The position numbers and the translations under genes are program-made. A stretch of DNA of 64,000 nt from Mycobacterium sherrisii (GTDB lineage: Bacteria > Actinomycetota > Actinomycetes > Mycobacteriales > Mycobacteriaceae). The notes below the pieces were generated by a model that worked only from the letters and a program-made list of their open reading frames with translations, was not told where the DNA came from and did no database searches. Location of the stretch: contig NZ_LQPT01000020.1 in NCBI RefSeq assembly GCF_002102355.1, positions 1-64,000 of the forward strand, written 5' to 3'. Numbering within the stretch: the stretch's first letter is position 1; the number at the start of each line of letters is the position of its first letter. Shown piece after piece: positions 5,191 to 37,602 of this stretch.

Positions 5191-5433
5191 GTCAACGCCG
5201 CGTTCAAGGCCGCCGCCGAGGGCAAACTCAAAGGCATCCTGAAGTACTACGACGAACCGATCGTCTCCAGCGACATCGTCACCGACCCCCACAGCTCGAT
5301 CTTCGACTCCGGCCTGACCAAAGTCATCGACAACCAAGCCAAAGTCGTCTCCTGGTACGACAACGAATGGGGCTACTCCAACCGCCTCGTCGACCTCGTC
5401 GCACTAGTCGGTGAATCACTGCACCACCGGTGA
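5191..5433 (+). pseudogene. gap: Glyceraldehyde-3-phosphate dehydrogenase, 3' fragment
   Basis: From about 5191 the plus strand encodes the last 80 residues of GAPDH, from [20 protein letters not shown] through [20 protein letters not shown] to a TGA at 5431-5433. This is the C-terminal part of the catalytic domain; the NAD-binding domain and the active-site Cys are absent. The reading frame stays open upstream to 5098, but that part is antisense to the CAP remnant. The next gene starts 7 bases downstream, which suggests an ancestral operon gap-phosphatase-fbp-prk that has lost most of gap. No GAPDH activity can be expected. Confidence 0.9.
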
Positions 5434-5439
5434 CGTCCC

Positions 5440-6279
5440 GTGACATCCCTGGCGACGCGGCACGACTGCTTGCTACTCGACCTCGACGGCACACTGTTTC
5501 GCGGAGCACGCGCCATCGACGGCGCCGCCGAAGCGCTTTCCCAGGCCTCCACTCGCAAGCTCTTTTTGACGAACAACGCCTCCCGCAGCGCACCCGAGGT
5601 CGCACAACACCTGTGCGCGATGGGATTTGACGCAAACCCGCACGACGTCATCACCAGCGGTCGATGCGCGGCAGCCCTGCTGGGTTCCGAATTGCCGCCG
5701 GGTTCCCCCGTGCTGGTGGTGGGCTCCGACGCATTGATCGCCGAGGTCTACGACGCGGGCCTGCCACCGGTCCGGCGATGGGCCGACGACCCGATTGCGG
5801 TGCTACAGGGGTTCTCGCCGCACCTCGGCTGGTGCGATCTGGCGGAGACGGCGCTCGCGATTGGCGCCGGAACGCCCTGGACGGCAACGAATCCCGACCT
5901 CACCCTGCCGTCCGAGCGTGGTCTGCTGCCCGGAAACGGTTCCCTGGTGTCGGCGCTGTGCGCGGCGTCCGGGGCGCGGCCTCGTGTGGTCGGCAAGCCG
6001 CACGGCTTCCTGTTCCAAGAAGCGCTGGCCCGCGGCAACTTTCAACGACCGCTGGTGATCGGTGATGGGTTGGACACCGACATCGCCGGGGCAAACTACG
6101 CGGGCCTGCCGAGCCTCCTGGTGCTCAGCGGAGTGACGACTGCCGTCGATGCGATTCGCGCCCGGCCGGCGCACCGTCCCAGGTACGTCGCTGCGGACCT
6201 GCGCGGAATCCATCACCCCAACCACGCGGATCTCAGCTATCACCGGCCACCCCCAGCCGACCACCCAATCGGGGGATGA
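5440..6279 (+). CDS. HAD-IIA phosphatase, candidate phosphoglycolate phosphatase
   Basis: A 279-residue NagD-type HAD phosphatase. Motif I is [10 protein letters not shown] (residues 10-19), motif II FLTNNAS, the motif III lysine is in RVVGKPHG, and motif IV is [13 protein letters not shown]. It is a close paralogue of the 334-residue enzyme at 55339-56343 but lacks that protein's C-terminal extension. GTG at 5440 starts just behind the gap fragment, and its stop overlaps fbp as ATGA. Position in a CBB operon with fbp and prk makes removal of 2-phosphoglycolate, the product of RuBisCO oxygenation, the best guess (cbbZ role). The paralogue family also dephosphorylates glycerol-3-phosphate, so substrate is inferred, not shown. 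Confidence 0.85.
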
Positions 6280-7415
6280 ACCGACACCGACCGGATCAGA
6301 CGATGTCGGTAGGTATTTCGCTGCCCGCCGGAGGCCCCCGCATGCTCACTCGCCACACCACGCTCGTGAAGTTTCTCATCGAGGAACGTCGCCGCCACCC
6401 AGATGCCAGTGGCGAACTGAACTCGCTGATTCTCGACGTCGCGCTGGCGTGCAAGGCGATCTCGGCGCGGGTGGCCCAGGGCGAACTCGGCGGAGTTCTA
6501 GGCGCCGTCGATGTGCTCAACGTGCAGGGCGAGGTGCAACAGAAACTCGACGTCCTGGCCAACGATTACTTCCTGCGCGCCAACGAATGGGGGGGTCAGG
6601 TAGCGGGAATGGCCTCCGAGGAGCTCGCCGAGCCCTATCTACTACCGACCCAGTATCCACGCGGCAAGTACCTGTTGGTCTTCGATCCGCTCGACGGCTC
6701 GTCGAACATTGACGTCAACGTGTCTGTGGGGAGCATCTTTTCGATTCTCCGTGCGGCCCACCCGGGTGAGGACCCCGCGCCGGAGGACTTCCTGCAACCC
6801 GGTTCGCAGCAGGTGTGCGCCGGTTACGCGATCTACGGCCCGTCCACGATGCTGGTACTCACGGTGGGGACCGGTGTACATGCCTTTACCCTGGACCCCG
6901 CGCTCGGCGAATTTGTGCTCACCCGCCCGTCGATCCGAATCCCAAGGTCGGCCCGCGAATTCGCGATCAACGCCTCCAATCGACGGTTCTGGGAACCCGC
7001 GGTTCAGCGCTACATCGACGAATGCCTGGCCGGCCGGACGGGTCCGCGCGGCAAGGACTTCAACATGCGCTGGGTTGCCTCCCTGGTCGCCGAGGCCCAT
7101 CGCATCCTCAGCCGCGGCGGCGTGTTCCTTTACCCCCGCGACGGCAAGGACCCCGAAAAGTCGGGGCGATTGCGGCTGTTGTACGAGGCCAGTCCGATCG
7201 CATTCCTGATCGAGCAGGCCGGCGGTGCGGCCAGCACCGGTCGCGGACGCCTGCTCGACGCCGTCCCGACCAGCCTCCACCAGCGGGTACCGCTGATCTT
7301 CGGGGCGATCGACGAGGTCGAGCTCATCGAGGATTACCACTGCAAAGACTACGTAAGACCGTCCACGTTCCCGCTGTACGGCGTGCGAGGCCTGTACCGC
7401 ATCGGTACCGGCTGA
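6276..7415 (+). CDS. fbp: Fructose-1,6-bisphosphatase, class I
   Basis: A 379-residue class I FBPase that hydrolyses fructose-1,6-bisphosphate, and in autotrophs also serves regeneration of ribulose-5-phosphate. The metal and phosphate site FDPLDGSSN lies at residues 136-144, preceded by the acidic SEELAEP segment. Mycobacteria normally use the class II enzyme GlpX, so a class I FBPase in this context points to the Calvin cycle. ATG at 6276 overlaps the TGA of the phosphatase gene (ATGA). ATG at 6303 would give a start nearer the usual length, so the first 9 residues are uncertain. Phosphoribulokinase follows 32 bases downstream. Confidence 0.93.
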
Positions 7416-36236: not shown

Positions 36237-36411
36237 CACGAACCTCCTGAGCAGCAAGGACCCCCGCGCCGGGTGGGCTGTCGCACGGGCGGTCACGCTC
36301 AGGTTAGACCCGGCCCCATGTGCCAACAATCACAATTTCGCACACAAAGTCTGCGTTTTTCCGCACTTTGTTTTCGCGACACCGTTGATCCCCACAAGGC
36401 AGCATGGTGTA
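36237..36411. promoter_or_regulatory. Divergent hypF / hypA promoter region with an inverted repeat
   Basis: The 175-base gap between hypF (minus) and hypA (plus) is AT-richer than its surroundings. An inverted repeat spans 36344-36371: ACAAAGT (two bases) GCG, TTTTTC, then CGCACTTTGT. It is well placed to be an operator controlling both maturation operons at once. No regulator can be assigned; a metal or hydrogenase regulator is an obvious idea. Confidence 0.45.
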
Positions 36412-36792
36412 GTGCACGAGCTGTCGCTGTGCCACGCCATCGCCGGTGTGGTGAAGCCCCACGCGCGGGGCCGCCGTGTCGACGTGGTCCGGGTCCAGGT
36501 CGGCGCGCTGCGCCAGGTGGTCCCGGAATCCCTGGAGTTTTGCTGGTCGCTGGTGTGCCAGCATCTGGACGAGAACATGGTCGACACCGTGCTGGAACTC
36601 GAACTCGTGCCCGCCGAAGTGTTCTGCCGCACCTGTGCGCAGCGGGCGCAGATCACGTCCCGGTGGTCGGTGTGCTGCCCGGCCTGCCAAAGCGCGGACG
36701 TTGCCTTGTTGCGCGGCAACGAGTTCCTGGTCACGTCGGTCGAGGTGTCCGAGGGCCCGGCGCACGCAGCCGACTCACGAAAGGTCAAGTGA
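36412..36792 (+). CDS. hypA: Nickel insertion protein HypA
   Basis: A 126-residue protein that brings nickel to the hydrogenase large subunit with HypB. Starting at GTG 36412 gives the invariant N-terminus MHELSLC, with nickel ligands His2 and Glu3; upstream codons in the same frame have no family character. The zinc site is CRTC and CPAC (near residues 70-90). The TGA is followed directly by the hypB ATG. The C-terminal tail is slightly long. Confidence 0.93.
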   Translation: MHELSLCHAIAGVVKPHARGRRVDVVRVQVGALRQVVPESLEFCWSLVCQHLDENMVDTVLELELVPAEVFCRTCAQRAQITSRWSVCCPACQSADVALLRGNEFLVTSVEVSEGPAHAADSRKVK

Positions 36793-37602
36793 ATGGGACG
36801 ATTTCACCGTCACGACGACGGCACCGTGCACAGCCACGATCACGACCACGAGCATCACGAGCACGGCGACCACAGCGGCTATGCCACCGGCTCACAGCGC
36901 ATCGACGTACTGGAGGCGATCTTCGCCGAGAACGACTCCCGCGCTGACATCAACCGGCGCGCGTTCGAGGACCATGGTGTGCGTGCCCTCAACCTGATGA
37001 GCTCGCCGGGTTCCGGCAAGACCACCATCCTGGCGGCAACACTGGACGCGCTGGCCGGCGAACTGGCCGTCGGCGTGATCGAGGGCGACATCGCCACCGA
37101 CCTCGACGCCGCCAAACTCGCCGGGCGTGGCGCCCAGGTGTCACTACTGAACACCAGCAACGGGTTCGGCGGCGAATGCCACCTGGACGCCCCGATGGTC
37201 AACCGCGCGCTGCAGGGGCTGCACCTGCCCGACCTGGACCTGGTCGTCATCGAGAACGTTGGCAACCTGGTCTGTCCGGCCGAATTCGACGTCGGCGAGC
37301 ACGCCAAGGCGATGGTCTACTCGGTCACCGAGGGCGAAGACAAGCCGCTGAAGTATCCCGTCATGTTTCGCTCGGTCGACGTCGTGCTGCTCAACAAGAT
37401 CGACCTGGTCCCGCACCTCGACGCCGACATCGACCGCTACATCGGCCATGTCCGACAGGTGAATTCGACGGCCACCATTCTGCCGCTGAGCGCGCGCACC
37501 GGCGACGGCATGACGCAATGGTTTGATTGGCTGCGCCAATTCGCCGCTACCGGACGCAGGCTCTCCCTGCCCTACAGCACGCCGGGGCCGCGCGTGGAAT
37601 AG
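36793..37602 (+). CDS. hypB: Nickel-binding GTPase HypB
   Basis: A 269-residue GTPase. The N-terminus is His-rich (HSHDHDHEHHEHGDHSG, residues 13-29) and should store or buffer nickel. The P-loop is SSPGSGKTT (about residues 69-77), with GDIATD and the guanine-specificity motif NKIDL. Nickel-binding Cys and His occur in GGECHLD. ATG at 36793 abuts the hypA stop. The 3' end overlaps a convergent UsfY-like gene by 31 bases. Confidence 0.95.
   Translation: MGRFHRHDDGTVHSHDHDHEHHEHGDHSGYATGSQRIDVLEAIFAENDSRADINRRAFEDHGVRALNLMSSPGSGKTTILAATLDALAGELAVGVIEGDIATDLDAAKLAGRGAQVSLLNTSNGFGGECHLDAPMVNRALQGLHLPDLDLVVIENVGNLVCPAEFDVGEHAKAMVYSVTEGEDKPLKYPVMFRSVDVVLLNKIDLVPHLDADIDRYIGHVRQVNSTATILPLSARTGDGMTQWFDWLRQFAATGRRLSLPYSTPGPRVE

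Follow-up and report, generated by a model that had tools for sequence, protein, structure and literature searches.

The first 64 kb of contig C20 (NZ_LQPT01000020.1) of Mycobacterium sherrisii (genome 5.56 Mb in 128 contigs) holds a block of genes at 5440–37602 that combines a group 2a [NiFe]-hydrogenase (Huc) and its maturation genes with red-type RuBisCO and other Calvin cycle genes, and also carries extra genes, nuoL2 and nuoM2, for two subunits of respiratory complex I. This whole stretch of 64,000 nucleotides, with a G+C content of 0.67, is referred to below as the window. The block recurs across mycobacteria and is not a one-off, and it is very probably an autotrophy module. The best overall explanation, and the one towards which we lean, is that this module also has a complex I of its own to drive reverse electron transport, trimmed in this lineage to an intact NuoL2-NuoM2 pair; we infer the electron path, its direction and the exchange of subunits from gene content, linkage, co-occurrence, channel residues and selection.

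A survey of 396 genomes of the genus, of the kind proposed in an earlier sequence-only reading of the window, found RbcL in 52 (E-value of 1e-50 or better) and HucL in 102. RbcL was 90–100% identical in 46 genomes (close RbcL) and 73–79% identical in six (divergent RbcL). HucL was present in all 46 genomes with close RbcL and in none of the six with divergent RbcL (Fisher p = 4.8e-25 over all 52), and 56 of the 102 Huc genomes were without RbcL. Named carriers of close RbcL, whose genomes measure 4.6–7.8 Mb (n = 46), include M. gordonae CTRI 14-8773, M. vinylchloridicum, M. lehmannii, Mycobacterium sp. BK086, Mycobacterium sp. UM_CSW and Mycolicibacterium sp. P9-22.

When the genus was searched with NuoL2 (rows at an E-value of 1e-80, three candidates scored per genome), two NuoL rows were obtained from 36 of the 46 close-RbcL genomes, versus five of the 350 other genomes (Fisher p = 1.6e-36). 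Two NuoL rows were likewise obtained from M. gordonae CTRI 14-8773. Twenty of the 56 Huc-positive, RuBisCO-negative genomes were fetched as controls. None had nuo genes around hucL and, with all candidates scored, none had a second NuoL copy, the single gene of genome G123 lying in two pieces. Because these controls show none, the second nuo is associated with RuBisCO and not with Huc.

Gene content of the hydrogenase and RuBisCO block

Genes were called and then annotated by Pfam and NCBIfam profile searches with family cut-offs, as follows.

5440..6279, + strand: HAD-IIA phosphatase, candidate phosphoglycolate or other sugar-phosphate phosphatase (general HAD-IIA model only)
6342..7415, + strand: class I fructose-1,6-bisphosphatase, FBPase (510 bits, cut-off 349)
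7448..8335, + strand: phosphoribulokinase, PRK (501 bits, cut-off 362)
8332..9843, − strand: nuoM2, extra complex I antiporter-like subunit M (700 bits, cut-off 550)
9840..11732, − strand: nuoL2, extra complex I antiporter-like subunit L (773 bits, cut-off 556)
11908..12741, − strand: g10, protein at the end of the huc string (matches neither Pfam nor NCBIfam; beside huc in many relatives)
12738..13916, − strand: NHL-repeat protein of the huc string (Pfam)
13913..14797, − strand: NifU-Rieske iron-sulphur protein, HucE-like (Pfam)
14794..16053, − strand: TPR-like protein (weak Pfam match, under cut-off)
16050..16325, − strand: g14, small huc-string protein (no Pfam match; beside huc in relatives)
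16322..17155, − strand: hydrogenase maturation protease, HycI type (Pfam, NCBIfam)
17178..18785, − strand: hucL, group 2a [NiFe]-hydrogenase large subunit (match to 7uus, cysteine motifs)
18840..19811, − strand: hucS, hydrogenase small subunit (longer open reading frame start taken; the gene caller picked 19763)
19875..20438, − strand: DUF1641 protein, hucM candidate (Pfam)
20694..21755, + strand: AraC-family regulator (Pfam)
21773..22675, − strand: LysR-family regulator, CbbR candidate (Pfam; CbbR name from position)
22672..23628, − strand: CbbX, red-type RuBisCO activase (486 bits, cut-off 459)
23600..24052, − strand: RuBisCO small subunit (Pfam)
24074..25480, − strand: RuBisCO large subunit, form IE side (alternative ATG 24 nt upstream possible)
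25704..26672, + strand: class I fructose-bisphosphate aldolase (Pfam, NCBIfam)
26660..27895, − strand: GAF histidine kinase (Pfam)
27892..28530, − strand: LuxR-type response regulator (Pfam)
28717..29403, + strand: ribulose-phosphate 3-epimerase, Rpe (Pfam, NCBIfam)
29466..31448, + strand: transketolase (Pfam)
31494..36110, − strand: hypE, hypD, hypC, hypF (NCBIfam for E, D and C, Pfam for F)
36412..37602, + strand: hypA, hypB (Pfam)
38002..39051, − strand: gene right of the block (gene call)
39367..39442: tRNA-Pro right of the block

The genes named by the sequence-only reading (hucMSL, hypABCDEF, RuBisCO, CbbX, PRK, FBPase, aldolase, Rpe and transketolase) were all recovered in place by Pfam and NCBIfam, with CbbX, PRK, class I FBPase, class I aldolase, Rpe, HypC, HypD and HypE exceeding NCBIfam cut-offs. 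The DUF1641 protein is a candidate HucM, a label carried over from that reading. That reading had made no mention of the NuoM/NuoL pair (8332–11732), the NifU-Rieske, TPR and NHL proteins, the HycI-type protease, the AraC and LysR regulators or the two-component pair. Read from the right, the huc string runs from the DUF1641 protein through HucS, HucL, the protease, the small protein, the TPR protein, NifU-Rieske and NHL to g10, and many neighbouring genes overlap by four bases, as in a tight operon. Ten relatives with the same arrangement of nuo genes (type A, described below) have an order identical to that of the window wherever their stretches reach, at 68–99% protein identity, so the block is not a product of chance. 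In M. gordonae, the nearest named relative by RbcL (97%), the gene order of the window was seen up to 10 kb around rbcL.

HucL aligns over residues 2–516 of 535 with the full length of the Huc large subunit in structure 7uus (1110 bits). It retains the Ni-binding cysteine motifs CPRICGIC and DSCLVC, in agreement with group 2a. The Huc structures 7uus, 7utd and 8dqv in the PDB are from M. smegmatis. The Rieske and NHL accessory genes in the gene string of hucL likewise agree with a group 2a neighbourhood, in which a Rieske protein (hucE) and NHL proteins are described beside hucL (PMC7784904). A whole-genome search with the [NiFe] large-subunit family returned Huc, an enzyme on contig C40 and an N-terminal match on contig C81 (37 bits, over the family cut-off), which adjoins two NuoL-like genes (30–32%). 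The C40 hydrogenase matches 5aa5 at 1083 bits, a structure assigned to group 1h (PMC9561532), and by sequence the genome carries both a 2a and a 1h-type hydrogenase, the latter on a contig other than that of the block. The supposition that the genome has no group 1h enzyme is thereby ruled out. Weak second matches (30–34%) to HucS, HucL or the NifU-Rieske protein were seen beyond hypB in G261, G012, G277 and G041, and possibly represent a 1h cluster adjoining the block.

The RuBisCO large subunit has the expected motifs and is accompanied by a small subunit, as in form I, and RuBisCO and PRK occur together, as expected of a Calvin cycle. In a quick tree of 71 rows, built without a set of typed reference forms, the RbcL of the window groups with those of Pseudonocardia, Actinomycetospora, Actinomadura, Thermomonospora and an Antarctic Eremiobacterota metagenome-assembled genome. 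This side is split from that of Bradyrhizobium, whose RuBisCO is form IC, which also holds Nocardia, Kineosporia and M. aquaticum (Shimodaira–Hasegawa-like approximate likelihood ratio test 98). The strains of Actinomadura, Actinomycetospora, Thermomonospora and Mycobacterium in PMC12999727 are assigned there to form IE, and the tree accordingly places the RuBisCO of the window on the form IE side. RbcL thus falls among form I sequences of lineages holding autotrophs, and the phylogenetic refutation that the sequence-only reading had envisaged fails. Its contrast between the published pairing of a 1h hydrogenase with form IE and a 2a enzyme in place of 1h here also fails, because the RuBisCO is IE-type and both hydrogenases are present.

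Four genomes of 3.0–3.4 Mb (G139, G193, G252 and G311) carry a different RbcL, 73–75% identical, and gave no Huc match. Two of these sequences (L238 and L237) group with proteobacterial RbcL in the tree, so the four probably reflect a separate acquisition of RbcL.

Of the candidate phosphoglycolate phosphatase, the HAD protein at 5440–6279 is present and its precise identity is not borne out, as it falls under every cut-off listed that is more specific than the general HAD-IIA model. It was seen in six of the ten other type-A blocks, some of whose stretches may end before it. A second HAD phosphatase, 59% identical to it, lies outside the block at 55339–56343, among genes that we take to be conserved mycobacterial core. 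Phosphoglycerate kinase, glyceraldehyde-3-phosphate dehydrogenase and ribose-5-phosphate isomerase were not among the called genes of the block, and no search for them was made elsewhere.

Second complex I genes in relatives

NuoL2 of the window shares 65% identity with its counterpart in the house nuo operon, which lies on contig C33. Arrangements of the extra nuo genes were read from stretches around rbcL fetched from relatives. Such genes adjoin the block in 40 of the 46 close-RbcL genomes at one of two sites, after g10 (27 genomes) or convergent to the aldolase gene (13), and for some of the 40 only an operon end is visible in the contig or stretch (e.g., nuoA in G043, nuoN in G109 and G395). 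Type A (the window and ten genomes) has only nuoL2 and nuoM2, directly after g10. In types B (nine genomes) and D (seven), a nuo operon follows g10 in the same direction, some hyp genes of type D sitting between g10 and the NHL gene; G012 was placed by the position of its NuoL. In type C (13 genomes), the operon lies on the other side of rbcL, 0.35–7.6 kb away and convergent with the aldolase gene. A second nuo operon is thus present in 29 of the 46, and is whole or nearly whole in the 21 whose stretches are readable throughout. In the g10 slot, the first nuo gene lies 94–1399 nt downstream on the same strand in all 24 stretches measured (175 nt in the window). The remaining six genomes are contig edges or fragments (G314, G312, G033, G389 and G041) and a remnant (G083). 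The G083 remnant (L232, 9881–11733) consists of an intact-looking nuoF and, next to it, an open frame that contains parts of nuoA and nuoE; it lies between the aldolase gene and cbbR.

The nuoC and nuoK queries were shortened and gave odd identities, so that the presence of these two genes in the second operons is weakly shown; the other 12 subunits are unaffected. NuoD occurs once in each of the 11 type-A genomes and twice in all seven operon-type genomes sampled, with one copy in G083 and in each of two RuBisCO-negative controls. The single NuoD suggests that type-A genomes combine one complex I core with two L/M sets.

Where two NuoL rows were found with close RbcL, both are near full length in 34 of the 36 genomes, G056 and G096 each having one row of about 450 of 630 residues. 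In 34 of these genomes, the second NuoL shares a contig with rbcL and is no more than about 32 kb from it; for G033 and G389, rbcL is near a contig end. Among the five other genomes with two rows, four have one gene in two pieces (G123, G236, G351 and G375) and G150 has a full copy and a truncated one. Within the 46, no NuoL row was obtained from G041, G043, G109, G144 and G175, and one row from G083, G312, G314, G354 and G395. In G175 and G144, two pieces of the NuoL C-terminus sit on separate contigs, as assembly breaks could produce. Similar NuoL copies perhaps collapse in assembly, and copy counts from draft genomes may therefore be too low. Outside the genus, four RuBisCO-positive Pseudonocardia genomes gave one NuoL row above 50% identity each, and three RuBisCO-positive Actinomadura genomes (G400, G401 and G403; L046, L047 and L053) have a NuoL at 60% together with a NuoL-like gene at 43%.

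Both nuoL2 and nuoM2 are open in all 11 type-A genomes, with mean ratios of non-synonymous to synonymous substitution rates (dN/dS) of 0.175 and 0.161, respectively, which shows purifying selection on NuoL2 and NuoM2. The two proteins are full-length and carry Glu in transmembrane helix (TM) 5, Lys in TM7, His (L) or Lys (M) in TM8 and Lys (L) or Glu (M) in TM12. These eight proton-path residues are invariant in all 11 type-A genomes. NuoL2 and NuoM2 align almost end to end with chains L and M of 8e9g; residues 5–621 of NuoL2 align on 8–620 of chain L, without the long lateral-helix insertion (PMC9040806) of 2M-type complexes, which also have an additional NuoM.

In a NuoM tree of 40 rows, the type-A copies form one clade (100/100), which groups with the second copies of G217, G056 and G261 (98/96). 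This fits type A having arisen by loss of genes from the operon that occupies this slot in relatives. In a NuoL tree of 42 rows, the second copies of G039, G300 and G261 each group as sister to their own genome's main copy, a pattern suggestive of gene conversion or of a recent duplication. A single origin of the second nuo operons was rejected by an approximately unbiased test against one clade (p = 2.6e-48; concatenated NuoB, D, F, G, H and I; 31 rows; quick tree). Repeated recruitment and repeated overwriting in place are both compatible with these trees, and either implies that the position beside the autotrophy genes was kept.

Proposed reverse electron transport and alternative explanations

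The block would act as a module for facultative autotrophy on H2 and CO2. Huc would oxidise H2 and pass its electrons into the aerobic respiratory chain, which the electrons of M. smegmatis Huc are described to reach (PMC7784904). The Calvin genes would regenerate ribulose 1,5-bisphosphate around the form IE-type RuBisCO, with a requirement for NADH or NADPH. The N-terminal match on C81 aside, no NAD(P)-reducing hydrogenase was identified in the genome by a search whose control was positive in Synechococcus elongatus. From the standard potentials and the H2 mixing ratio, the potential of H2 at 0.53 ppm and pH 7 was computed to be about −228 mV, above that of NAD+/NADH (−320 mV). Given these two observations, NADH would have to be formed with menaquinol electrons driven uphill through complex I. 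By the same computation, two electrons from menaquinol (−74 mV) to NADH cost about 0.49 eV, and four protons, at the usual ratio, yield 0.60–0.72 eV at 150–180 mV; complex I run in reverse by the proton-motive force could pay this cost.

The extra nuo genes linked to the block would serve this reverse electron transport, a role for which we consider the chances to be even, and a paralogous complex I would let the cell regulate reverse flow apart from normal respiration. In type A, where only the distal pump module is doubled, NuoL2-NuoM2 could take the place of the resident distal pump module in the house enzyme. This exchange is the weakest step, and we propose it tentatively, as a possible but doubtful arrangement. 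On a wider scale, H2-driven Calvin autotrophy might have repeatedly recruited a paralogous complex I as a reverse machine, which in M. gordonae-like lineages would have shrunk to a NuoL2-NuoM2 cassette that makes a reverse-mode isoform of the house enzyme; we judge this wider scenario unlikely.

Several observations weigh against a block-linked complex I for reverse flow. Since the genomes are related, the Fisher values overstate independence, and the genus search scored only three candidates per genome, with 14 of the 396 genomes, five of them among the 46, giving no NuoL row. The sampled RuBisCO-positive genomes of other actinobacterial genera are without a near-identical second NuoL. G083 has RuBisCO and Huc with only the nuo remnant, and a full second complex I is therefore not indispensable. 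Gene conversion with the main operon could yield the same tree as repeated duplication. NuoL2 and NuoM2 evolve faster than the main copies (dN/dS 0.159 and 0.170 versus 0.096 and 0.119 in the same three genomes), which fits slow decay too. In the second copies of the other types (n = 21), the TM5 Glu is replaced by Arg in one NuoM and the TM12 Glu column is a gap in another, and the second NuoL of G056 is cut short. A terminator-like hairpin (11793–11769, − strand; 11 pairs with a T-rich tail) intervenes between g10 and nuoL2; such sites number 10 in 8000–25800, with 9.5 expected in shuffled sequence. The hairpin makes co-transcription of nuoL2M2 with huc doubtful, and the two genes may form a transcription unit of their own.

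We consider it unlikely that the block is instead an aid to mixotrophy or survival, with Huc scavenging trace H2, RuBisCO acting as an electron sink and the extra nuo genes providing a spare, forward-running NADH dehydrogenase. Huc without RuBisCO is the commoner state among the Huc genomes, group 2a enzymes are described in obligate heterotrophs (PMC7784904), and the sizes of the close-RbcL genomes are usual for heterotrophs. Against these points stand the joint retention of dedicated PRK, FBPase, aldolase, Rpe, transketolase and CbbX, the H2-using autotrophic Mycolicibacterium of PMC12999727, and the restriction of the second NuoL, among the genomes searched, to those with close RbcL, which forward NADH oxidation leaves unexplained.

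For nuoL2-nuoM2 themselves, an alternative is that they are roleless leftovers of a decaying second nuo operon. The pair sits in the slot that holds nuoA-N in relatives, L and M are all that was found there in the 11 type-A genomes with their single NuoD, the rates of NuoL2 and NuoM2 exceed those of the main copies, and real decay is visible in G083. Decay would, however, be expected to be more random than the retention of the same two genes in all 11 genomes, and both genes are open throughout, with dN/dS of about 0.17 and eight invariant channel residues, so that we regard it as somewhat unlikely. The pair could also be a stand-alone, proton- or cation-driven device for uptake of inorganic carbon, like DabAB or the cyanobacterial NDH-1 CO2-uptake variants. 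NuoL-family subunits take up inorganic carbon in other systems, and the pair adjoins Calvin genes and a neighbour, g10, that matches no family. This is very unlikely, as no match to DabA (PF10070) was found in the genome, which rules against an inorganic-carbon pump, NuoL2 exceeds the NuoL cut-off and is far under that of the NdhF3 CO2-uptake family (266 bits, cut-off 589), and the same slot in relatives holds a nuo operon with NADH-oxidising subunits.

Known systems, neighbouring genes and significance

The proposal of the sequence-only reading that H2 oxidation powers CO2 fixation remains the best reading, because the genes are linked and co-occur. It left aside the source of NADH, which is where the new observation lies. 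Its novelty was overstated, as H2-oxidising autotrophic mycobacteria are already in print. M. gordonae is reportedly capable of H2 autotrophy, according to older accounts. PMC12999727 lists an H2-using autotrophic Mycolicibacterium and, in its Table 2, form IE with H2-oxidation genes in seven of seven further Mycobacteriales strains, and PMC5385496 cites Gomila et al. (2008), whose title describes M. llatzerense as facultatively autotrophic and hydrogen-oxidising. Group 2a enzymes are reported in autotrophs, as is uptake of atmospheric H2 by the RuBisCO autotroph Acidithiobacillus ferrooxidans (PMC7784904). The hydrogenase and Calvin block is therefore largely known in kind, and its reading as an H2/CO2 system is sound.

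The window resembles the Huc of known structure in the whole chain of HucL, its cysteine motifs and its Rieske and NHL neighbours, and differs in joining Huc to Calvin genes in one block, with extra nuoLM in this lineage. Like Mycolicibacterium JCM 16229 and Pseudonocardia JCM 13855 (PMC12999727), its host would combine aerobic life with H2 as donor, and form IE is found in most Actinomycetota surveyed in that paper; for those autotrophs, in contrast, the term complex I occurs zero times in the main text and a second copy goes unmentioned there. Atmospheric chemosynthesis by a 1h hydrogenase and RuBisCO form IE, described in isolates that include Mycobacteriales (PMC9561532), shares with the window an IE-side RuBisCO and a 1h-type enzyme in the genome, but in the window it is the 2a enzyme whose genes are physically linked to those of RuBisCO.

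The lithoautotrophic Nitrospira and Manganitrophaceae likewise carry extra complex I or pump subunits, and reverse electron transport is the role suggested for these paralogues (PMC6606698; PMC9040806). Theirs include 2M-type arms that have a lengthened NuoL, and they supply a reductive tricarboxylic acid cycle, whereas the mycobacteria have canonical subunits duplicated beside Calvin and Huc genes, of which the window keeps only L and M. No description of a second complex I with RuBisCO or hydrogenase in mycobacteria was found in the open-access literature searched by title and start of abstract.

The GAF kinase and response regulator (26660–28530 in the window) are also found beside huc in seven of the 20 RuBisCO-negative genomes, and this two-component pair may be part of the hydrogenase system and not of carbon fixation. 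To the right of the block, a match to the ASdes small RNA family (38633–38700, + strand; 66 bits, gathering threshold 40) lies inside the − strand gene at 38002–39051. A mobile island was considered and found no support: among the 20 listed of 24 direct-repeat families in 1–42000, none links the tRNA-Pro gene to the block's left flank (no separate search was made with the end of the tRNA itself), and the G+C content is 0.63–0.71 all along this region.

What may surprise a specialist is the RuBisCO-linked extra complex I, of which the window has a reduced NuoLM form. Aerobic H2 oxidisers that feed menaquinone face the energetic question of where the NADH for fixing CO2 comes from, and face it most sharply at atmospheric H2, which allows no direct reduction of NAD+. 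A paralogous complex I that tracks RuBisCO but not Huc offers a genetically separable candidate, and the natural series of full operon, NuoLM pair and remnant makes the idea testable. The second nuo would also be a practical marker for likely autotrophs among the 102 Huc-bearing mycobacterial genomes sampled.

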